Positions 4,365-20,852 of a stretch of 64,000 bases of DNA are shown here, piece after piece. Position 1 is the first letter of the stretch. The number at the start of each line of letters is the position of its first letter. The stretch is from assembly GCA_017992055.1 (NCBI GenBank), contig JAGOPK010000014.1, forward strand, positions 1 to 64,000, written 5' to 3'. Under the pieces are notes generated by a model that was not told where the DNA came from, searched no databases, and saw nothing but the letters and a program-made list of their open reading frames with translations. The stretch comes from Burkholderiaceae bacterium (GTDB lineage: Bacteria; Pseudomonadota; Gammaproteobacteria; Burkholderiales; Burkholderiaceae_C). The translations under genes were made by a program, and so were the position numbers.

Positions 4365-5210
4365 TCAACCCTGCTTTGGCTCCATCAGCATCAGACCGGT
4401 GGCGGTGTTGGAAATGGGCAGGTGATAGTTGCGGTGCAGTTCGGTCACCTGCGGGCCCAGGGCGGCGCGGGTGGCCAGCCACATCAGCAGTTCCACGCCC
4501 TGGGTGCCGGCCTGCTCGACGATCTGGCGGGTGCTGAACTGGGTGGCCCAGTCGGGCTGGGGGCCGACCAGGCTGTCCATGAACTGCAGGTCGAAGGGCT
4601 TGTTGATGAAGCCGGCGCGCTGGCCGTCGAGCTGGTGGCTCAGGCCGCCGGTGCCCAGCACCAGCACGCGCTCGTCGCCGGGCCACGAGGCCACGGCGCG
4701 GCCCAGGGCCTGGCCCAGCTTCCAGCAGCGGGCAGCGCTGGGCAGCGGCGCCTGCACGGTGTTGATGCACACCGGTACCACCTTCACCGGCCAATGCTGA
4801 TCCGGCCACAGCAGGGCCATCGGCAGCGTGAAGGCATGGTCGACCTTCATCGCCTGGCAGCTGACCGGGTCGAACTCCTCGTCGACCAGCGACTCCAGCA
4901 GATGCCAGCTCAGGGCCGGATGGCCGGCAAACGGCGCCACCTGCGGAATGCCCCAGCCCTCGTCGGCATTGCGGTACTCGGGCGCCGCGCCGATGGCGAA
5001 GGTGGGCATGGCATCGAGGAAGAAGTTCAGCCCGTGGTCGTTGTAGACCACCACCACGGTGTCGGGCCGGGTTTCGGCCAGCCAGCGGCGCAGCGGCACG
5101 AAGCCGTCGAAGAAGGGCTTCCAGTACGGGTCTTGCTGCAATCCCTTGGCGATGGCGCCGCCGATGGCGGGCACGTGCGAGGTGGTGATGCCACCGATGA
5201 TTCGGGCCAT
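4365..5210 (-). CDS. Class III extradiol dioxygenase, LigB-type catalytic subunit (paralogue)
   Basis: This 281-residue protein belongs to the protocatechuate 4,5-dioxygenase beta-subunit (LigB) family, which cleaves catecholic rings next to the hydroxyls using Fe(II). Family residues are in place: His12 (TSHVPAIG), His59 (VYNDHG), the base His in GTGGLSHQL and the ligand Glu in VELLMWL. ATG at 5210 gives the same N-terminus as the second LigB in this window. The longer open frame upstream runs through the alpha-subunit gene. It lies 26 bp downstream of its partner and is divergent from a LysR gene. Its substrate may be protocatechuate, gallate or a methoxylated analogue; sequence alone does not decide. 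Confidence 0.85.
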   Translation of the reverse strand: MARIIGGITTSHVPAIGGAIAKGLQQDPYWKPFFDGFVPLRRWLAETRPDTVVVVYNDHGLNFFLDAMPTFAIGAAPEYRNADEGWGIPQVAPFAGHPALSWHLLESLVDEEFDPVSCQAMKVDHAFTLPMALLWPDQHWPVKVVPVCINTVQAPLPSAARCWKLGQALGRAVASWPGDERVLVLGTGGLSHQLDGQRAGFINKPFDLQFMDSLVGPQPDWATQFSTRQIVEQAGTQGVELLMWLATRAALGPQVTELHRNYHLPISNTATGLMLMEPKQG

Positions 5211-5236
5211 GCGAGTCTCCTTGGCTGCCTGTTGTT

Positions 5237-5590
5237 TCAGCGGTGGGCCAGCAGCCTGGCCTTGAACTGTTCCTTGCTCAGCCCGGTCTGCTGGGCGCCG
5301 ATGTCCTGCATGTCCAGGCCGAAGATGCCGGCGAACTTGGCCAGGTAGTAGGCATTGCCGCCGGCGGCGATCAGCGCCAGCACATTGCGGCCGCGGATGG
5401 CCTCGCGCTGCTCGGCATCCAGGCCGTAGCGGGCGCAGTAGCCGTCCTCGTCGGCGACGAAGGCGGCGCGGTTGGACGCGTCGTTGAAGGAATAGCACAT
5501 CGCGTTCAGCGCATGGCCGCGCATGGCCTGCCGGCCATCGAAGATCACGGTGCCAGGGATGGGCGGGGTGTTGATGCAGGGCTTGGTCAT
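5237..5590 (-). CDS. LigA-type small subunit of extradiol dioxygenase (paralogue)
   Basis: This 117-residue protein matches the alpha subunit of protocatechuate 4,5-dioxygenase: an N-terminal PPIPGTVIFD segment and the helical core ending in GGNAYYLAKFAGIFGLDMQDIG. That core parallels GGNIYFLAKIGATDGKSFQYMA in the second LigA of this window. It is about 33 residues shorter than that one because it lacks the C-terminal tail. ATG at 5590 was chosen because homology begins just after it. It forms an operon with the LigB-type gene and probably helps cover the active site. Confidence 0.8.
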   Translation of the reverse strand: MTKPCINTPPIPGTVIFDGRQAMRGHALNAMCYSFNDASNRAAFVADEDGYCARYGLDAEQREAIRGRNVLALIAAGGNAYYLAKFAGIFGLDMQDIGAQQTGLSKEQFKARLLAHR

Positions 5591-9124: not shown

Positions 9125-11386
<2,262 letters not shown>

Positions 11387-11399
11387 TGGATTTCCTCGC

Positions 11400-13112
11400 T
11401 CAGTGGGGCACGCATTCGAAGCTGGCGGCCGCATCGGCCGGGCCGCTGCCCTTGTACCGCGCATGGCCCGGCCATTCGCACAGCGGGCGGGCGCGCTGCT
11501 GCGGGAACGGCGCCGACAGCACGGTCTGCTCGACCAGGCGCAGCTCGCCCGGCGCCACACCCTGCTCCACCCAGGCCGCCAGCGGCTTGAGCATGTCGAC
11601 CAGGGCCGGCGCGCCGGTGCCCACATGGTCGACGCCGGGCGCGGTGTACAGGCGCAGGAACTGGCGCGCACGGTCGGCGCCCAGCGTGCGCTGCACCGCC
11701 TGCACGTACTGGATGCCGGCATAGGGGCTTTGCGCGTAGTCGCTCAGGTACTCCAGCACGATCAGCTTGCCGCCGCGGGCATGGAAGGCCGACAGGTCGG
11801 GATTGGTCGAGTCCATCAGCGCCGACACCTCGCGCACGCGCTGCGCATGGGCCTCGGGCGTGATGCTGCGGGGATCGGCCTGCGGGTTGCGGGCATAGAA
11901 GTACTGCAGCGCGCCGCTGCCGTAGAACCAGGCGATGCCGTTGGCCGGCAGCGGCGGCACGGTGGGCGCGGCATTGCCGGTCCACCAGGCGCGCCAGCCA
12001 CCGGTGGGGCCGACGGCCGGCGTGTCCTCGCCGCCCAGGCCCCAGGCCGGGTATTCGCTCAGGCCGTTGGCCAGCGGCAGGCTGAACTTGAACGGCGAGC
12101 GCAGCGTGCGCACCGCCTGCACCTGGGCCGGCAGCAGGCAGGCATCGTCGTTGCGGCCGGCCGGACATTGCAGCGTGGCCGGATCGAAGCGGCTGCGGCA
12201 GGCCTCGGTGGCGCCGATCACGCGGTCGGCCAAGCCATCCAGCGCATCGCAGGCGGCCAGCGTGGCCTCGTGCACCAGCTTGACCCGCGCCGGGTTCAGC
12301 CAGCCCTCGCCCATCAGCGCCAGGCCGTTGCGGGTGCCGGCGAACTGCAGGCCGGTCCAGTGGATCACCGGCACGCGGCTGAAGATGCCGTCGAAGGCCG
12401 CCGGATAGCGCTGGGCCATGGTCAGGCCCTCGCGCCCGCCTTCGCTGCTGCCGACGAAGTACAGCTTGTCGGGCGCACGGCCGTAGGCGCGCTTCATCAG
12501 CTCCACCGCGACATTGCGCACCTTGGGGTAGGACGCATGGGCGAAGTTGGCCAGCATCTCGTCGTTCAGCGCAAAGCTCTGCGGCGGCTGGCCGGCCTTG
12601 GTCAGGTGGCCCGAATCGGTGCCCACCGTGGCATAGCCCTGGGCCAGCGGGCCGGGCGTGTCATAGGGCGAGCCCGGCACCAGGGCCAGGCCGTTGATCA
12701 GCACGCCGTTGAAGCCGCCACCGCCGAACTGCACCGAGCGCCCGTTCCACTGCAGCGGCAGGTTGACCTGGAACTGGATGGGCTCGGCCGCCGGGTCCAC
12801 CGGCGCGATCTTGCCCAGCACGCGGCAGTGCTGCGGCAGGGCCGGCGTGATGCGGCCGGCCGGCGTGGGCCCGCCCGGGGCCACCACCAGCGGCGTGGCC
12901 GCCACCAGGCTGGCGCTGTCCACGGTGGCGGCGCCGCTGCTCAGGCCGGGCCAGACGATGCGTTCGGCCGGAATGCTGGCGCCGGCCAGCGCGGCGCAGG
13001 CGGCCTGGGCATCGCCGGACAGGCGCGGGCCGGCGGGGATGTCGGGCGCGCTGGCGCAGGCGGCCAGCAGCAGCGGCACCGAGGCCGCGGCAAGGGTTCG
13101 GTTCATGGCCAT
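11400..13112 (-). CDS. Tannase/feruloyl esterase family lipoprotein (MHETase-like), atypical active site
   Basis: This 570-residue protein has a lipoprotein signal (LLLAAC, Cys19) and the tannase/feruloyl esterase fold. Recognisable parts are the nucleophile elbow VGSSEGGREG (Ser223), Asp458 in YLSDYAQ, His496 in GVDHVGTG, the ACDALDGLADRV segment of the lid region and the C-terminal ARYKGSG. It probably hydrolyses an ester of an aromatic acid at the cell surface or in the periplasm and feeds the operon. The cysteines that flank the Ser and the His in this family (CS-D-HC motif) are Ser222 and Val497 here. Start is ATG 13112 (GGAGA just upstream) or 13106. Confidence 0.88.
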   Translation of the reverse strand: MAMNRTLAAASVPLLLAACASAPDIPAGPRLSGDAQAACAALAGASIPAERIVWPGLSSGAATVDSASLVAATPLVVAPGGPTPAGRITPALPQHCRVLGKIAPVDPAAEPIQFQVNLPLQWNGRSVQFGGGGFNGVLINGLALVPGSPYDTPGPLAQGYATVGTDSGHLTKAGQPPQSFALNDEMLANFAHASYPKVRNVAVELMKRAYGRAPDKLYFVGSSEGGREGLTMAQRYPAAFDGIFSRVPVIHWTGLQFAGTRNGLALMGEGWLNPARVKLVHEATLAACDALDGLADRVIGATEACRSRFDPATLQCPAGRNDDACLLPAQVQAVRTLRSPFKFSLPLANGLSEYPAWGLGGEDTPAVGPTGGWRAWWTGNAAPTVPPLPANGIAWFYGSGALQYFYARNPQADPRSITPEAHAQRVREVSALMDSTNPDLSAFHARGGKLIVLEYLSDYAQSPYAGIQYVQAVQRTLGADRARQFLRLYTAPGVDHVGTGAPALVDMLKPLAAWVEQGVAPGELRLVEQTVLSAPFPQQRARPLCEWPGHARYKGSGPADAAASFECVPH

Positions 13113-13146: not shown

Positions 13147-14079
13147 TCAGGCCTCTTCGGGCCAGTACAGGCGCATCGGGTTGTCGACCAGCAGCTTGCG
13201 CTGCAGCTCGGCCGTGGGCGCGATCTGCGAGATGAAGTCGACCAGCAGGCCGTCGTCGGGCATGTGGTCCTTCAGGTTGGGATGCGGCCAGTCGGTGCCC
13301 CAGAGCACACGATCGGGGAATTCTTCGACCACGCGGCGCGCGAACGGCACCACGTCCTGGTAAGCGGCTTGCTCGCCATTCAGCGCCTTGGGGCCGGTGA
13401 CGCTCAGGCGCTCGGGGCAGCTGACCTTGCTCCAGACGTTGGGGTGCTGGCGCATGAACTTCAGGAACAGCGCGAACTCGGGCCCATCGACGGGCTTGCT
13501 GACGTCGGGGCGGCCCATGTGGTCGACCACCACGGTGGTGGGCAACGCGGTGAAGAAGTCCCACAGCTCGGGCAGGTCCACCGCCTCGAAGTAGATCACC
13601 ACATGCCAGCCGAGCTTGGCGATGCGCGCGGCAATCTCCATCAGCTCGTCCTTGGGCGTGAAGTCGACCAGGCGCTTGACGAAGTTGAAGCGCACGCCGC
13701 GCACGCCGGCCGCATGCAGCTGCTGCAGCTCGTCGTCGCTGACGCTGCGCCGCACCGTGGCCACGCCACGCGCCTTGCCGCCGCTGGCGATGCAGGCGTC
13801 GACCATGGCGCGGTTGTCGGCGCCATGGCAGGTGGCCTGCACGACCACGTTGCGCGCAAAGCCCAGGTGGTCGCGCAGCGCAAACAGCTCGTGCTTGCTG
13901 GCGTCGCAGGGCGTGTACTTGCGCTCGGGCGCATAGGGAAACTCGGCGCCGGGGCCGAACACATGGCAGTGCGCGTCCACCGCGCCGGCCGGCAGCGCAA
14001 AGCGCGGCTTGGCCGGGCCGGTGTACCAGTCCAGCCAGCCCGGGGTCTTGGTGAAGTCGCCCGACGTGGGTTTGCTCAT
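13147..14079 (-). CDS. ligI: 2-pyrone-4,6-dicarboxylate lactonase (PDC hydrolase)
   Basis: This 310-residue amidohydrolase-superfamily enzyme has the N-terminal metal-site motif VDAHCHVFGPGAEFPY, VVDHMGRPD in mid-protein and LWGTDWPHPN near the C-terminus. This is the LigI/PmdD pattern. It opens the lactone PDC, the LigC product, to 4-oxalomesaconate. The start is ATG at 14079 and the neighbours are 16 bp (upstream oxidoreductase) and 34 bp (downstream tannase-like gene) away, consistent with one operon. Confidence 0.93.
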   Translation of the reverse strand: MSKPTSGDFTKTPGWLDWYTGPAKPRFALPAGAVDAHCHVFGPGAEFPYAPERKYTPCDASKHELFALRDHLGFARNVVVQATCHGADNRAMVDACIASGGKARGVATVRRSVSDDELQQLHAAGVRGVRFNFVKRLVDFTPKDELMEIAARIAKLGWHVVIYFEAVDLPELWDFFTALPTTVVVDHMGRPDVSKPVDGPEFALFLKFMRQHPNVWSKVSCPERLSVTGPKALNGEQAAYQDVVPFARRVVEEFPDRVLWGTDWPHPNLKDHMPDDGLLVDFISQIAPTAELQRKLLVDNPMRLYWPEEA

Positions 14080-14094: not shown

Positions 14095-15027
14095 TCAGTC
14101 CTTGTTGGCTTGCAGATGCACCAGGATGCGGTCGGCCTCGACACGCCAGTCGGCCGCCCGGGCAAAGCCCGGCGTGCCGCGCCGGCCGAACAGGCCGTCG
14201 TCGGCCAGGTCGGCCACCCAGGCTTGGCGCTCGGCGGTGCCGGCCGCGCTCCAGGGCGTGAGGCCGGCCTCGCGCACGGTCTCGGCCACCTCGCGCACCT
14301 CTTCGCTGCGGCGCCGGCCATGCTCGACCACACGCTGGAAGAAATAGGCGGCCTGCTTCTCCCAGTCGATGCCGGGGAAGGTTTCGTACAGGCTGGCCAC
14401 CACCGCGTCTTCCACGCCGTAATGGCGGGCGGCGGTGAAGCTCTCGATGACCATGGCCTCCAGGCCCTTGATCATCACGCTGCGGCACATCTTGGTGGCG
14501 CTGGCCAGGCCCAGCGTGGCGCTGTGCACCTTGGGCGCAAAGCCCAGGGCCGCCAGCGCCGGCTGCAGCGCCTGCGCATCCGGCCCGCCCAGCAGCAGCG
14601 GCACGCGGATGCGGTAGGGCGGCACGCTGGTCATCACCGCGCCCTCGACATAACGCCCACCGGCCGCGTTCACCACCTGGGCGGCGCGGCCCTTGGCGCC
14701 GGGCGAGGCCGAGTTGAAGTCGAGGAAAAACGCGTCCGGCGGCAGCGCCGGCGCCACCGCCTCGGCCACCGCCACCGCCTGGCTGGCGGTGACGGCGCTG
14801 ACCACCAGGTCGCAGTCGCGGGCCAGGGCCGCGGCATCGCTGTGCAGCTGCACGCCGTGGGCCTGGGCATGGGCCTGCAGCGGCGCGGCGCCCTCGCCGG
14901 CCAGCTTCAGGTCGTGGGCGGCGATGGCCAGGCCCTGGGCGCGCAGGTCCTCGGCCAGGATCTTGCCGACCTCGCCATAACCGACCAGGCCGATGCGCCA
15001 GGTCTTGGGATCTTGGGACAGGCTCAT
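14095..15027 (-). CDS. NAD(P)-dependent oxidoreductase, 6PGDH-type Rossmann domain plus DUF1932
   Basis: This 310-residue protein begins with a dinucleotide-binding motif (IGLVGYGEVGKILAEDL) in a 6-phosphogluconate/3-hydroxyisobutyrate dehydrogenase-like domain, with DFNSASPGAKG around 115-125. An all-helical DUF1932-type C-terminal domain follows, starting near TKMCRSVMIKGLEAM. The reaction is not known. Its place between PDC hydrolase and the binding-protein gene suggests it acts on an operon intermediate or an alternative substrate such as a hydroxy acid. ATG at 15027 puts the Rossmann motif at residue 12. Confidence 0.82.
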   Translation of the reverse strand: MSLSQDPKTWRIGLVGYGEVGKILAEDLRAQGLAIAAHDLKLAGEGAAPLQAHAQAHGVQLHSDAAALARDCDLVVSAVTASQAVAVAEAVAPALPPDAFFLDFNSASPGAKGRAAQVVNAAGGRYVEGAVMTSVPPYRIRVPLLLGGPDAQALQPALAALGFAPKVHSATLGLASATKMCRSVMIKGLEAMVIESFTAARHYGVEDAVVASLYETFPGIDWEKQAAYFFQRVVEHGRRRSEEVREVAETVREAGLTPWSAAGTAERQAWVADLADDGLFGRRGTPGFARAADWRVEADRILVHLQANKD

Positions 15028-15056: not shown

Positions 15057-16046
15057 TCAGTCCAGTGCCGCCTTGGCACGGCGCACCACGTCGGCATACA
15101 GGGCCGACTGCTGGGCGATCTGCTGGTTGAACTGCTCGCGCGTGGCCGGGAACAGCTCGTAGCCGAAGGTGGCATAGCGCTCCTTGATGTCGGGCTCGGC
15201 CAGCGCGTCGGCAATGTCCTTCTGGATCTTGTCGGCCACCGCCTTGGGCAGGCCCTTGGGCGCGGCGATGGTGGTCCAGCCGGTGACCTCATAGCCCTTG
15301 GGGCCGCCCGATTCGCTGACCGTGGGCACGTCCGGGAAGGCCGGGTGGCGCTTGGGGCCGGTGACGGCGATGAACTTGAGCTTGCCGCTGCGCTGCAGCG
15401 GGCCGGCCGTGGCCAGCGAGCCGAGGGCGAAGTTCAGCTCGCCATTGGCCACGCCGGTGTAGAGCATGGCCGTTTCCTTGTAGATCACATGCTGCATCTC
15501 GGTGCCGGTGCTGGCCTCCAGCAGGGCCGAGCCCAGGTGCACCGGATTGCCCACCGACCAGGAGCCGTAGTTCAGCGCGCCCGGATGGGCCTTGGCATCG
15601 GCCACGATGTCGCCCACCGTCTTGTACTTGCTGTTCGTCGGCACGGTGACGAAGAAGTAGGTGCGGAACAGCGGCAGCAGCGGATCGAAGTCCTTGGCCG
15701 CGTCATAGGGCAGCTTCTTGAACAGGTGCGGATAGGCCACCAGGTGCACGTTGTCCAGCTGGATCAGCTCGTGGCCATCGGGATTGGCACGCTTCCAGGC
15801 GTCGATGGCGATGAAGCCGTTGGCGCCGGGCTTGTTCTCGATGATCACCGGCTTGCCCCATTTGCGCTGCAGCTTCTCGGCCAGCACGCGCAGCACGGCC
15901 TCGGGGCCGGCGCCGGCCGGGAACGGCGTCGTGATGCGCACCGGCTTGGTCGGGAAGTCCTGGGCCTGGGCCAGGCCCGGCAGCAGCGAAACGGCGGTGG
16001 TGGCAAGCGCGGCGGCCGCGGCCAGCCAGTGTCGGCGAAGGGTCAT
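15057..16046 (-). CDS. Bug/TctC-family periplasmic substrate-binding protein
   Basis: This 329-residue protein has a cleavable signal peptide (about 1-28, ending AQA) followed by FPTKPVRITTPFPAGAGPE and GKPVIIENKPGANG. These are hallmarks of the Bug family, which binds small carboxylates for tripartite tricarboxylate transport or sensing. No TctA or TctB membrane gene is present in the window, so it is an orphan binding protein, as is common in Burkholderiales. It probably binds an aromatic acid or dicarboxylate related to the pathway. The start is ATG at 16046. Confidence 0.88.
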   Translation of the reverse strand: MTLRRHWLAAAAALATTAVSLLPGLAQAQDFPTKPVRITTPFPAGAGPEAVLRVLAEKLQRKWGKPVIIENKPGANGFIAIDAWKRANPDGHELIQLDNVHLVAYPHLFKKLPYDAAKDFDPLLPLFRTYFFVTVPTNSKYKTVGDIVADAKAHPGALNYGSWSVGNPVHLGSALLEASTGTEMQHVIYKETAMLYTGVANGELNFALGSLATAGPLQRSGKLKFIAVTGPKRHPAFPDVPTVSESGGPKGYEVTGWTTIAAPKGLPKAVADKIQKDIADALAEPDIKERYATFGYELFPATREQFNQQIAQQSALYADVVRRAKAALD

Positions 16047-16067: not shown

Positions 16068-16751
16068 TCAGTCGATGTAGCGCAGGCCGGCCTTGGCCAG
16101 CGGTTCGCGCATCTTGTACATGTCCAGGCCCAGCACGCCGGCGGCCAGCTGCTCGCGCTTGGCGCCTTCGTTGGCCTCGCGGGCGCGGGCGGCTTCCAGG
16201 GTCTTGGCGGCCAGCGCACGCGGCACGCAGACCACGCCGTCGTCGTCGGCCACGATCACGTCGCCGGGCGTCACCCACATGCCGGCGCAGACCACCGGGA
16301 TGTTCACCGAGCCCACCGTGGCCTTGATCGTGCCCTTGCTGCTGATGGCCTTGCTCCACACCGGGAAGCCCATCTCGGTGAGCGTCTTCACGTCGCGCAC
16401 GCCGGCGTCGATGACCAGGGCGCGCGCGCCGCGGGCCATGAAGCTGGTGGCCAGCAGGTCGCCGAAGTAGCCGTCCGTGCATTCGGCGGTGATGGCGGCG
16501 ACGACGATGTCGCCGGGGCGGATCTGCTCGGCCACCACATGCATCATCCAGTTGTCGCCGGGGTGCAGCAGCACGGTGACGGCCGTGCCCGAGACCTGGG
16601 CACCGGCATAGATGGGCCGCATATAGGGCTTGAGCAGGCCGACGCGGCCCATGGCCTCGTGCACCGTGGCGCTGCCGAGTGCGGCCAGCCCATCGGCCAC
16701 GGCGGCCTCGGTGCGTTCGATGTTGCGGTAGACGACGCCGAGTTCGTACAT
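16068..16751 (-). CDS. ligK: 4-carboxy-4-hydroxy-2-oxoadipate aldolase
   Basis: This 227-residue RraA-fold class II aldolase has the [16 protein letters not shown] segment, with the catalytic Arg and the metal-binding Asp of the family, and [15 protein letters not shown] near the C-terminal third. LigK/PmdF cleaves CHA to pyruvate and oxaloacetate, the final step of protocatechuate 4,5-cleavage, and also decarboxylates oxaloacetate. ATG at 16751 gives the standard N-terminus [11 protein letters not shown]. It is 32 bp downstream of ligJ. Confidence 0.92.
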
Positions 16752-16783
16752 GGTGGGTGCTCCTTGAATCAAAGGCTCAAAAC

Positions 16784-17812
16784 TCAAAGGCCCTTTGCCT
16801 TCAGCTGGGCATCGAGGCGGCCGAACACGCGGCGCGCATTGCCTTCGTAGACCTTGTGCTTGTCCTCGGCCGACAGGATGGTGCTGGCCTCGATGTAGCG
16901 CTTGGTGTCGTCGTAGTAGAAGCCGGTCTCGGGGTCGATGCCACGCACGGCGCCGATCATCTCGCTGGCGAACAGGATGTTGTCCACCGGGATCACCTTG
17001 GTCAGCAGGTCGATGCCCGGCTGGTGGTAGACGCAGGTGTCGAAGAAGATGTTGTTCAGCAGGTGGTCCTTCAGCAGCGGCTTCTTCAGCTCTTGTGCCA
17101 GGCCGCGGAAGCGCCCCCAGTGGTAGGGCACGGCGCCGCCGCCATGCGGGATCAGGAACTTCAGCGTCGGGAAGTCCTTGAACAGGTCGCTGGTCAGGCA
17201 CTGCATGAAGGCCGTGGTGTCGGCATTCAGGTAGTGGGCGCCGGTGGTGTGGAAGCAGGCGTTGCAGCTGGTGCTGACATGGATCATCGCCGGGATGTCG
17301 TACTCGACCATCTTCTCGTAGATCGGGTACCAGCTGCGGTCGCTCAGCGGCGGGCTGGTCCAGTGGCCGCCGGAAGGATCGGGGTTCAGGTTGATGCCGA
17401 CATTGCCGTACTGCTCCACGCACTTCACCAGCTCGGGGATGCAGGTGGCCGGGTCCACGCCCGGGCTCTGCGGCAGCATCGCCGCCGGCACGAAGTGCTC
17501 GGGGAACAGCTGGCTGACGCGGTAGCACAGCTCATTGCAGATCGCCGCCCAGGTGCTGCTGACCTGGAAGTCGCCGATGTGGTGGGCCATGAAGCTGGCG
17601 CGCGGGCTGAAGATGGTCAGGTCGCTGCCGCGCTCCTTCATCTTGGCCAGCTGGTTCTGCTCGATGGTCTCGCGCAGCTCGTCGTCGCTGATCTTCAGAT
17701 CGCTGACCTTGGGCATGGCGGCCGGGTCCTTGATGCCGGCGATCTGCGCATTGCGCCAGGTCTCCAGCGCCTTGGGCGCGGTGGTGTAGTGGCCGTGCAC
17801 GTCGATGATCAT
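16784..17812 (-). CDS. ligJ: 4-oxalomesaconate hydratase
   Basis: This 342-residue amidohydrolase-2 family enzyme starts [13 protein letters not shown], with a metal-binding HGH. It contains [45 protein letters not shown] (shown here in parts: the metal-site His lies in MIHVS), [15 protein letters not shown] and the C-terminal NARRVF. This is the LigJ/PmdE pattern. It hydrates the enol form of 4-oxalomesaconate to 4-carboxy-4-hydroxy-2-oxoadipate, the substrate of LigK. ATG at 17812 puts the metal motif at residues 6-8. Confidence 0.92.
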
Positions 17813-17849
17813 GGCGTTTGCCTCCTGCTCTGAGATGGATGCGTGGGAT

Positions 17850-18575
17850 TCAGGCCGGGTCCATGCCCTGGCGGCGCTTGGCCTCGGTGGCCTCGGCGCC
17901 GGCCATGTAGGCCAGCAGCGCCCGGGCCGCTTCGGCATCGGCAGCCGTGCGGCAGACGGCGCCGGAAAACACGGTGTTGATCTGCGCCTCGGCCGGCAGC
18001 GTGGAGGCCAGGCGGATGCCCGGCTGGTGGATCAGCTCAGACAACTGCTGGAAACCCAGCGCCACCTCGCCACGCGCCACCAGGCTGCCCACCGGCACGC
18101 CGGCCGGGGCCTGCAGCAAACGGCCGGCCAGGGCCTCGGACAGGCCCCATTGCTCAAACAGCTTCAGCAGCTGGGTGCCGCTGGGACCGGTGGAATAACC
18201 GATGCTCGGTGCAGCCAGCAGGGCCGCGTGCAGCGCAGCCAGGCTGGACAGGTCGGGCAGCGGTGCGCCCTCGGGCACGGCCACGGCCACGCCGGAGCGG
18301 GTCAGCGGCAGCGTGCTGCCCGGCAGCAGATGGCCGGCGGCCTCCAGCTTGGCGATGGCGTCCGAGGCCAGCACCACCACGTCGAAGGCCTCGCCGGCGG
18401 CCACGCGCTTGGCGGCGTCGACGCCGCCCACCGACTCGAAGACCACCGCCCGGCCCCCGGCCGCCGCATGGGCCTGGGCCAGCTCGGCCAGCACCAGGCG
18501 CGTGGCCATCGACGAAATACCACGCAGCACCGGGGCCGGCGACTGCAGGTCGGAATCGGTATCGGGGCGGGTCAT
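17850..18575 (-). CDS. ModA-like substrate-binding-domain protein without signal peptide
   Basis: This 241-residue protein has the molybdate-binding-protein-like two-lobe fold. Recognisable segments are GISSMATRLVLAEL, VVFESVGGVDAAKRVAAGEAFDVVVLA and GYSTGPSGTQLLKLFEQWGL. No signal peptide or lipobox precedes the domain, from either ATG 18575 or the longer GTG frame to 18602, so a cytoplasmic location is predicted. No modB or modC gene is nearby. It is the first gene of the pathway operon, 38 bp before ligJ. A role as a ligand-binding accessory or an unrecognised enzyme step, such as OMA isomerisation, is speculative. Confidence 0.75.
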   Translation of the reverse strand: MTRPDTDSDLQSPAPVLRGISSMATRLVLAELAQAHAAAGGRAVVFESVGGVDAAKRVAAGEAFDVVVLASDAIAKLEAAGHLLPGSTLPLTRSGVAVAVPEGAPLPDLSSLAALHAALLAAPSIGYSTGPSGTQLLKLFEQWGLSEALAGRLLQAPAGVPVGSLVARGEVALGFQQLSELIHQPGIRLASTLPAEAQINTVFSGAVCRTAADAEAARALLAYMAGAEATEAKRRQGMDPA

Positions 18576-18634: not shown

Positions 18635-19585
18635 TCAACCTGGCATGGACTGTGCCGCCGCGCCCTGCGGCAGCGAACGGGTCAGCTCGGTCAGCAGGCG
18701 CATGGTCTGGCGCATCAGCGGCCCGGGGCGCTTGTGGGCGCTGGCGGCCAGGCACAGCACGGTGGACAGGCGTGGCTGCACCATGGCGCGCACCAGCAGC
18801 TGGTCGGCACGCCCGCTGGCGGCCACGGCGCTGGCATGCAGCACCGCATGGCCGTAGCCGGCGGCCACCAGCTCGATGATGGCGGCGATGCTGGACACCT
18901 CCCAGGCGATGTCCAGGCGCACGCCGGCCAGCGCGGCCTGGGTCTCCAGCAGGCGGCGGATGGCATGGCCGCGCTCGGGCGCGATCAGCGCATAGTCGGC
19001 CAGGCGGCGCAGCGGCACGGCCGTGGCCGCAGCCTCGGGCACCGGCGCCAGTGCGCCGACCATCGGCGACACCAGGCACAGCGGCTCCTCGTGCACCGGC
19101 GTGATCTCCAGCGCCGGCTGGGCCTCGGGGTTGTACATCAGGCCCAGGTCCACGCGGCCGGTGGTGATCCACTCGACGATGTGGGTGGACAGGCCCTCGA
19201 CGATGGCCAGCCGCGCCTGCGGGCAGCGGCGGCCGAAGGCGTCGATCAAGGGCAGCGTGAGCTGGCGGCTCAGCGTGGGCGGCAGGCCCACGGTGATGCG
19301 GCCGGTGGGCAGGTCGCGCGAGGCGCCCATGTCGCTGCGCGCCGCGGCCACCGCCTCCAGGATGCTGCGGCCATGCTCGAACAGGCGCTGGCCGGCCTCG
19401 GTGAGGGTGACGCCGCGGCCGTTGCGCAGCAGCAGGGTCTCGCGCAGATCGGTTTCCAGCGCCCGCACCTGGCGGCTGAGCGCGGGCTGGGCGATGTCCA
19501 GCACCAGGGCGGCCTTGCTGAAACTGCCCAGCTCGGCCACATGCACGAAGTATTCGAGTTGCTTCAGGTTCACGGCAAGCGGCAT
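18635..19585 (-). CDS. LysR-family regulator of the protocatechuate 4,5-cleavage operon (PmdR-like)
   Basis: This 316-residue LysR protein has an N-terminal HTH (about 7-65: FSKAALVLDIAQPALSRQVRALE, then LLLRNGRGVTLTEAG) and an effector domain. It is encoded immediately upstream of, and in the same direction as, the pathway genes, so it may both regulate and be transcribed with them. ATG at 19585 gives MPLAVNLKQLEYF, the standard LysR spacing. Known relatives of this operon are induced by protocatechuate or its cleavage products. The ligand here is inferred only from context. Confidence 0.87.
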   Translation of the reverse strand: MPLAVNLKQLEYFVHVAELGSFSKAALVLDIAQPALSRQVRALETDLRETLLLRNGRGVTLTEAGQRLFEHGRSILEAVAAARSDMGASRDLPTGRITVGLPPTLSRQLTLPLIDAFGRRCPQARLAIVEGLSTHIVEWITTGRVDLGLMYNPEAQPALEITPVHEEPLCLVSPMVGALAPVPEAAATAVPLRRLADYALIAPERGHAIRRLLETQAALAGVRLDIAWEVSSIAAIIELVAAGYGHAVLHASAVAASGRADQLLVRAMVQPRLSTVLCLAASAHKRPGPLMRQTMRLLTELTRSLPQGAAAQSMPG

Positions 19586-19616
19586 TGTCGCCGCTGGCCG
19601 TGAACCCCGGCCCCGC

Positions 19617-20852
<1,236 letters not shown>

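Follow-up and report, generated by a model that had tools for sequence, protein, structure and literature searches.

The window, the whole stretch of 64,000 nucleotides analysed here, encodes an esterase belonging to a disulfide-free branch of a known enzyme family, that of the tannases, feruloyl esterases, and MHETase (PF07519). This branch is a true and conserved feature; none of its rows examined has either cysteine of the active-site clamp, and two chance substitutions do not account for this paired absence. The clade of the window esterase, recognized by the motif S-S-E-G-G around the catalytic Ser, is nested in the larger disulfide-free branch, and the loss of the disulfide extends more widely than the protocatechuate 4,5-cleavage operon in which the esterase gene is located.

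The esterase and its gene neighbourhood

The esterase gene is part of a run of genes on the minus strand. The features of this region are as follows:

9125–10075, minus strand: putative LigC/PmdC-type dehydrogenase (GFO_IDH_MocA and OxRdtase_C domains)
10072–10929, minus strand: protocatechuate 4,5-dioxygenase beta subunit LigB/PmdB (PRK13366, 588 bits, cut-off 317; PF02900)
10934–11386, minus strand: protocatechuate 4,5-dioxygenase alpha subunit LigA/PmdA (TIGR02792, 225 bits, cut-off 108.6)
11400–13112, minus strand: coding sequence of the PF07519 esterase, S-S/D/H-V form (ORF of 570 aa)
11622–11627, minus strand: catalytic H496 and V497 of the esterase (MHETase H528 and C529)
11739–11741, minus strand: catalytic D458 of the esterase (MHETase D492)
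12444–12449, minus strand: S222-S223 of the esterase; S223 is the nucleophile, and S222 replaces the disulfide Cys (MHETase C224)
13056–13112, minus strand: N-terminal signal of the esterase, ending in the lipobox L16-A-A-C19 (LLLAAC), recognized by eye and by a regular expression
13147–14079, minus strand: LigI/PmdD-type amidohydrolase, putative 2-pyrone-4,6-dicarboxylate hydrolase (from family and position; best NCBIfam match below its cut-off)
14095–15027, minus strand: DUF1932/NAD_binding_2 dehydrogenase-like protein of the same gene run
15057–16046, minus strand: TctC-type periplasmic substrate-binding protein
16068–17528, minus strand: ORF with an RraA-like aldolase domain, the true start lying inside the ORF (putative aldolase step, from the family)
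16784–17938, minus strand: second amidohydrolase, putatively of the LigJ/PmdE type (from family and position)
18635–19771, minus strand: LysR-type regulator, upstream boundary of the run

The LigI-type gene is located 34 bases upstream of the esterase ATG, and the ATG of LigA lies 13 bases past the esterase stop codon. The preliminary description, which was made from the window sequence, had spoken of a complete protocatechuate 4,5-cleavage operon. This is broadly right: the LigA and LigB models pass their curated cut-offs, whereas the roles of LigC, LigI, LigJ, and the aldolase were assigned by Pfam family and gene order only, and the tautomerase step is unplaced. A second LigB-family (PF02900) ORF was noted at 4368–5498 on the minus strand; it lies close to a LysR-type ORF, a few kilobases beyond the downstream end of the operon. 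A minority of the named related operons (L052, L054, L055, and L060) also have a DUF1932/NAD_binding_2 protein beside LigI.

The match of the esterase to PF07519 covered the full domain (466 bits against a curated cut-off of 29.8; protein residues 96–568, model positions 1–490), and membership in the family is clear from this sequence match. For the same protein, no naming model of NCBIfam scored above its cut-off. According to the phmmer search, the nearest solved relatives were MHETase and then fungal feruloyl esterases. An AF2 model obtained with 20 sequences had a pLDDT of 81.6 and a pTM of 0.86; its best PDB match in Foldseek was MHETase (E 8e-37), followed by feruloyl esterases and the tannase of A. 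niger, so that the predicted fold matches solved members of the family. The confidence of the model was low at residues 133–137, 384–396, and 497–501, which form the active-site loops; therefore, how these loops are held is not readable from it.

The active site of the esterase comprises the motifs G221-S222-S223-E224-G225-G226, D458, and D495-H496-V497, the last within P-G-V-D-H-V-G. In the phmmer alignment with the MHETase structures, the cysteine positions fell on S222 and V497, while the Ser-His-Asp triad was intact and, together with the oxyanion Gly, in register with that of MHETase. The initial observation of Ser222-Ser223, Asp458, and His496-Val497, with both cysteines gone and the triad kept, was thus confirmed. 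Cysteines elsewhere nearby, the alternative raised at the time, were looked for, and none was found: among the nine cysteines of the protein (residues 19, 39, 96, 288, 305, 316, 325, 545, and 567), C19 belongs to the lipobox, and the remaining eight align with the other four cysteine pairs that the family conserves. An alignment slip or a substitute nearby Cys was ruled out, since all nine cysteines are assigned and the motif is invariant in the clade. The four other pairs and the Asp residues of the lid calcium site are conserved at the level of sequence positions. The active-site clamp is the sole conserved pair missing from the window esterase.

The S-S-E-G-G clade and its link with the protocatechuate operon

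Homologs of the esterase were searched for in the window's genome, 60 relatives, 399 genomes of the order, 397 genomes of the phylum, and a set of named genomes, which yielded 19 loci; the order survey used the window protein itself as the query. The alignment contained 144 rows, including the query and MHETase, and comprised part of the further survey matches, the weaker or fragmentary ones being left out; rows identical to another row or contained in it were merged, and three short ORFs were dropped. The motif S-S-E-G-G was found in 34 rows, the query included, and the residue after the catalytic His was Val in 33 of them and Met in one. In this alignment, all 33 relatives with at least 58% identity to the query carried the motif. 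The 34 rows formed one clade (SH-aLRT 99) in a tree computed without columns 222 and 497. A tree of 80 rows, which were picked by hand and include neither the long branch L156 nor the majority of near-copies, was likewise computed without both columns and united the 14 representatives in one clade with a support of 100/100 and in 100% of 200 bootstrap trees. The supposition that the esterase represents a distinct subfamily is thereby upheld by a well-supported clade, which lies, however, inside a wider disulfide-free branch.

Relative to the rows with both cysteines (C/C), the clade has fixed or nearly fixed residues at S222, E224, R246, V247, W252, W271, W395, E454, Q461, D495, and V497. Among them, E224, W252, E454, and D495 were present in all 34 clade rows and Q461 in 33. 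Position 454, four residues before the catalytic Asp, is Glu in the clade and His in 61 of 74 C/C rows, and position 461, which corresponds to F495 of MHETase, is Gln in the clade and mostly Phe, Ile, or Val elsewhere. Judging from their conservation, these residues are candidates for a loop lock and for substrate choice. Among 47 distinct S-S-E-G-G proteins, 32 showed the lipobox pattern; the 15 without it were 13 Bradyrhizobium-type copies, L182, and L034. The Bradyrhizobium-type copies had N-termini that appeared signal-like by eye and were without a lipobox.

Comparison of gene neighbourhoods demonstrated that LigI and LigA flank the esterase in 18 of the 19 named loci, two of which probably correspond to surveyed genomes, as they share an identical 260-residue core with them (L055/L009 and L056/L006). 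The flanked loci belonged to Ramlibacter, Caenimonas, Rubrivivax, an uncultured Aquabacterium, other Burkholderiales, and one MAG labelled only Proteobacteria; the exception was Bradyrhizobium stylosanthis. Among 399 genomes of the window's family, the clade was present in 14 (window included), with LigA adjoining in 12 of these, and LigB was present in 223. The slot between LigI and LigA was compared at 90 LigB loci from 89 genomes, which were the best-scoring PmdB matches (the 30 best and the next 60 in list order) and not a random sample: 80 slots were empty, six held an SS-type enzyme, two held a CC-type enzyme, and two were unassigned. Two PmdB matches at contig starts (G959 and G873) were skipped, and since G873 has an SS-type enzyme beside PmdA, one SS case was left out of this count. 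As 80 of the 90 sampled PmdB loci were without such an esterase, the enzyme is accessory.

The two CC-type enzymes found in the slot carry CS-D-HC and are about 33% identical to the query. In Rubrivivax MAG-218 (L053:1–4460), the slot holds a CS-D-HC esterase and an SS-D-HV esterase in tandem. The CC-type enzymes that occupy the slot singly were nearest to a C/C branch other than that of the tandem CC-type enzyme of Rubrivivax, and three PF07519 branches were found in the LigI-LigA slot. Disulfide loss is therefore not required for the slot, and a tie between this loss and the operon was rejected because CC-type enzymes occupy the same position. The preliminary description had connected the missing disulfide with the operon and its substrate; in addition to the CC-type enzymes, the occurrence of the disulfide-free state in 62–63 of 144 rows and of clade copies outside the operon argues against this. 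It had also named close CS-D-HC homologs in this position as evidence against a separate subfamily. Members with CS-D-HC do occur in the operon position, but they are the distant ones mentioned above, and no close CS-D-HC homolog was found in the order, phylum, named-genome, window's-family, and Bradyrhizobium-family surveys.

Copies outside the operon were observed in two groups. The Bradyrhizobium family had matches in 15 of 198 genomes, 13 with S-S-E-G-G and two with G-G-S-E-G-G, and no pathway genes were present within about 1.5 kb of these copies. Five wider neighbourhoods of the Bradyrhizobium type, L064 included, contained no protocatechuate pathway genes either. Neighbours noted for Bradyrhizobium-type copies were rhodanese, 2-hydroxyacid dehydrogenase, PepSY, MFS, and chemotaxis genes, which indicate no single substrate. 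In two genomes of genus g49 from the window's family, the clade copy was located outside the operon, and both genomes were absent among the LigB-positive genomes listed. One of them has branched-chain-type ABC transporter genes, LysR, and TctC by the esterase, and two loci of the GSEGG group have dehydrogenases, acyl-CoA dehydrogenase, and GST as neighbours; in both cases, no single substrate is indicated. Hence, a permanent location in the protocatechuate 4,5 operon does not define the clade, as the copies of the Bradyrhizobium family and of genus g49 lie elsewhere. The link of the clade to the protocatechuate 4,5-cleavage pathway is clear but not exclusive. Of the preliminary reading, the association with the operon is supported for Burkholderiales, where the named loci and the family genomes place the gene mostly inside the operon; the specialization for an aromatic ester is putative.

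Taken together with the family assignment, this context suggests that the window esterase is probably an active exported PF07519 serine esterase that releases protocatechuate-type acids from esters outside the cytoplasm. The enzyme would have an alpha/beta-hydrolase core with a large lid and, in Burkholderiales, would mostly be lipid-anchored, as predicted from the N-termini. S223, H496, and D458 would perform ordinary acyl-enzyme chemistry. The putative substrates are esters of protocatechuate or of closely related hydroxybenzoates, such as those of the gallate, vanillate, or 4-hydroxybenzoate type; after uptake, the freed acid would be cleaved by the protocatechuate 4,5-cleavage enzymes of the adjacent genes. 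For the clade members located away from the operon (Bradyrhizobium family, L064, and genus g49), a wider or another substrate range is therefore possible. A more specific proposal, which we put forward tentatively, is that the clade is the dedicated extracytoplasmic esterase of protocatechuate 4,5-cleavage, acting on protocatechuoyl or galloyl esters with a non-covalent loop lock and a rewired pocket and charge relay. As part of this same tentative proposal, the lock might consist of the invariant D495 before the catalytic His, E454, W252, and the nearly invariant Q461.

The enzyme might instead be a general exported phenolic or carboxyl esterase of the feruloyl, chlorogenate, or tannase-like kind, for which the operon is merely a convenient site of co-expression. 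This possibility is less likely, although the location of the Bradyrhizobium-family and genus g49 copies away from the operon is consistent with it, as is the broad substrate range given for Tan410, a CS-D-HC enzyme, in the accessible text of its report (PMC7936011). What argues against it is the recurrence of the gene order LigI-esterase-LigA in several genera, as well as the presence of three family branches in the same slot. Both observations indicate a link with the protocatechuate pathway.

Terephthalate and phthalate also feed protocatechuate. For this reason, and because S-E-G-G is common to the clade and MHETase, we considered a MHETase-like enzyme or a hydrolase of phthalate or terephthalate monoesters, which is unlikely. 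The nearest solved structures are those of MHETases, and E224 aligns with E226 of MHETase; however, the carboxylate-binding R411 corresponds to I393 here (Ile in 33 of 34 clade rows), S416 to G398, and F495 to Q461, the alignment of the lid being less sure, and the clade is far from MHETase in the tree. According to the available part of PMC6461665, the substitutions R411A and R411Q almost completely abolished MHET conversion in MHETase. In addition, no terephthalate gene was found among the scanned ORFs of the window (parts of 1–31 kb), in a scan that was not terephthalate-specific. MHETase proper was rejected on account of the non-conserved R411, with the reservation on the lid alignment given above, and the sequence makes membership in MHETase sensu stricto unlikely.

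The active-site disulfide across the family

The state of the two cysteine positions was counted on 143 rows, one row without a C-terminus being excluded. Both cysteines were present in 73 rows, MHETase included, and neither in 70, a proportion that is no estimate of the family share because relatives of the query are over-represented in the sample; no row was mixed. For comparison, the other four pairs, counted without MHETase, were complete in 137 rows (one with neither, five gapped), 143 rows, 140 rows (three gapped), and 131 rows (eight with neither, four gapped), and all four were retained in the 34 clade rows. On the tree, the disulfide state switched at least four times, giving one large disulfide-free branch (the 62–63 rows mentioned above) and three smaller ones; four switches were also observed on the 80-row tree.

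Loss of the disulfide is likelier than its gain, on a tree that is unrooted. The reverse course, with the disulfide gained several times and the disulfide-free state ancestral in part of the family, is improbable. It draws on the missing root and on the fact that counts of changes do not separate gain from loss; however, C/C is found in about half of the readable rows, with distant branches and MHETase among them, and repeated gain of both cysteines would be less likely than losing both.

Several further observations concern the family at large. A second disulfide-free PF07519 paralogue of the window's genome, L001 (C15:346045–347505; T-S-N-G-G / H-S), lies within a C/C branch, is grouped with L010, and was counted as a separate switch. 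The ten top PF07519 scores in the phylum survey all belonged to S-S-E-G-G proteins (nine from family f95 and one from the window's family); thus, in this survey, the Pfam model fits the disulfide-free branch best. The catalytic Ser is replaced in six of the 144 rows, by Gly in L004, L115, and L023 and by Ala in L027, L102, and L152. L004 is a paralogue in the window's own genome (C7:44468–45955) and keeps the HC motif. It groups together with L115, so a conserved non-catalytic form is possible.

With respect to the clade of the window esterase, the clamp between the nucleophile loop and the His loop may have been given up as a unit in the ancestor of the larger branch. The loops would then be held by packing and hydrogen bonds involving S222/V497, E224, W252, E454, D495, and Q461, and the fold by the remaining four disulfides together with clade-specific packing. 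The full-length MHETase double mutants described below were insoluble or unexpressed, from which it follows that tolerance of clamp loss needs compensation, for which the residues listed are candidates only. Relocation to the cytosol as the cause of the loss was rejected, since the four other pairs are kept and the N-termini are of the export type.

In seven chosen close pairs of the clade, dN/dS (NG86) was about 0.12–0.39, a sign of purifying selection. The triad was present in all 34 clade rows, and the triad, S-S-E-G-G-R, and D-H were invariant in the set of 20 sequences; no internal stops were detected among the 14 matches of the family survey and the 15 of the Bradyrhizobium family. Thus, even though six family rows lack the catalytic Ser, one of them in the same genome, it is hardly credible in view of this invariance, the dN/dS values below 0.4, and the uninterrupted reading frames that the enzyme is a paralogue in decay or without catalytic activity, whose disulfide disappeared under relaxed selection.

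Comparison with known enzymes

The disulfide of the CS-D-HC motif is described as typical of the tannase/feruloyl esterase family and more than 80% conserved, and an active-site disulfide is stated for the structures 3wmt and 6g21, in the available part of PMC6461665. Since the conservation given there is only above 80%, exceptions must already be known in number. Having S222 and V497, the window esterase falls outside the CS-D-HC group of the family. A “non-CS-D-HC” class of feruloyl esterases and tannases (de las Rivas et al., 2019) is cited in the accessible text of PMC8507159; therefore, the lack of the motif has in itself been recorded before. The window esterase shares this absence with the class and is likened to it by the class name alone; the same portion of PMC8507159 does not mention an operon link or the paired loss of cysteines. 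In the parts seen of the open-licence PMC texts, including PMC8958541 and PMC6449761, no description of an SS-D-HV clade or of the gene order LigI-esterase-LigA was found.

The fungal feruloyl esterases (3wmt, 6g21, 6fat, and 8bhh) and the A. niger tannase (7k4o) have the same fold as the window esterase according to Foldseek and are similar to it in phmmer, but their sequence identity to it is low. Tan410, an esterase from a soil metagenome, has a signal peptide and hydrolysed every hydroxybenzoic ester on which it was assayed, as stated in the excerpted report (PMC7936011), in which the substrates tested include methyl 3,4-dihydroxybenzoate. It is a phenolic-ester hydrolase that, unlike the window esterase, has CS-D-HC, and the two are likened by description alone. 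The enzyme of Variovorax sp. SRS16 (WP_162571174.1, L292) is also disulfide-free (G-G-S-E-G-G / N-H-G) and has a lipobox-like N-terminus; it is plasmid-borne, 43% identical to the query, and nearest to the G-S-E-G-G sister group. Its gene adjoins an annotated 4-oxalomesaconate tautomerase, a TTT binding protein, and a LysR regulator, none of which was found within 4 kb of a Comamonadaceae plasmid match. The neighbourhood in Variovorax and the activity given for Tan410 are in keeping with the putative release of protocatechuate-type acids by the window esterase. The occupation of one operon slot by different branches of the family provides a testable substrate class for proteins annotated as “tannase/feruloyl esterase family.”

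The closest comparison is with the MHETase of Ideonella sakaiensis (6qz1 and 6qg9), which has a PF07519-type sequence, the lidded fold, and the triad in common with the window esterase. S-E-G-G after the nucleophile, the calcium-site Asp residues, and the cysteines of the other disulfides are in register as well, whereas the C224/C529 disulfide of MHETase has its counterpart in S222/V497. In the consulted part of PMC7568301, ten cysteine positions of MHETase are called highly conserved, double mutants of C224/C529 in the full-length enzyme are reported to have given inclusion bodies or no expression, and a lidless MHETase with this pair replaced was produced and had very low activity. If the reading of the clade as a dedicated esterase is true, the clamp would be dispensable given a defined set of residues, although full-length MHETase without it gave no soluble protein. 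The natural disulfide-free branch thus offers ready-made templates for disulfide-free MHETase and feruloyl esterase scaffolds, along with a list of candidate residues, and the paired and repeated absence of the clamp in the family contrasts with its failed removal from full-length MHETase, as far as the latter is documented in that part of the source.
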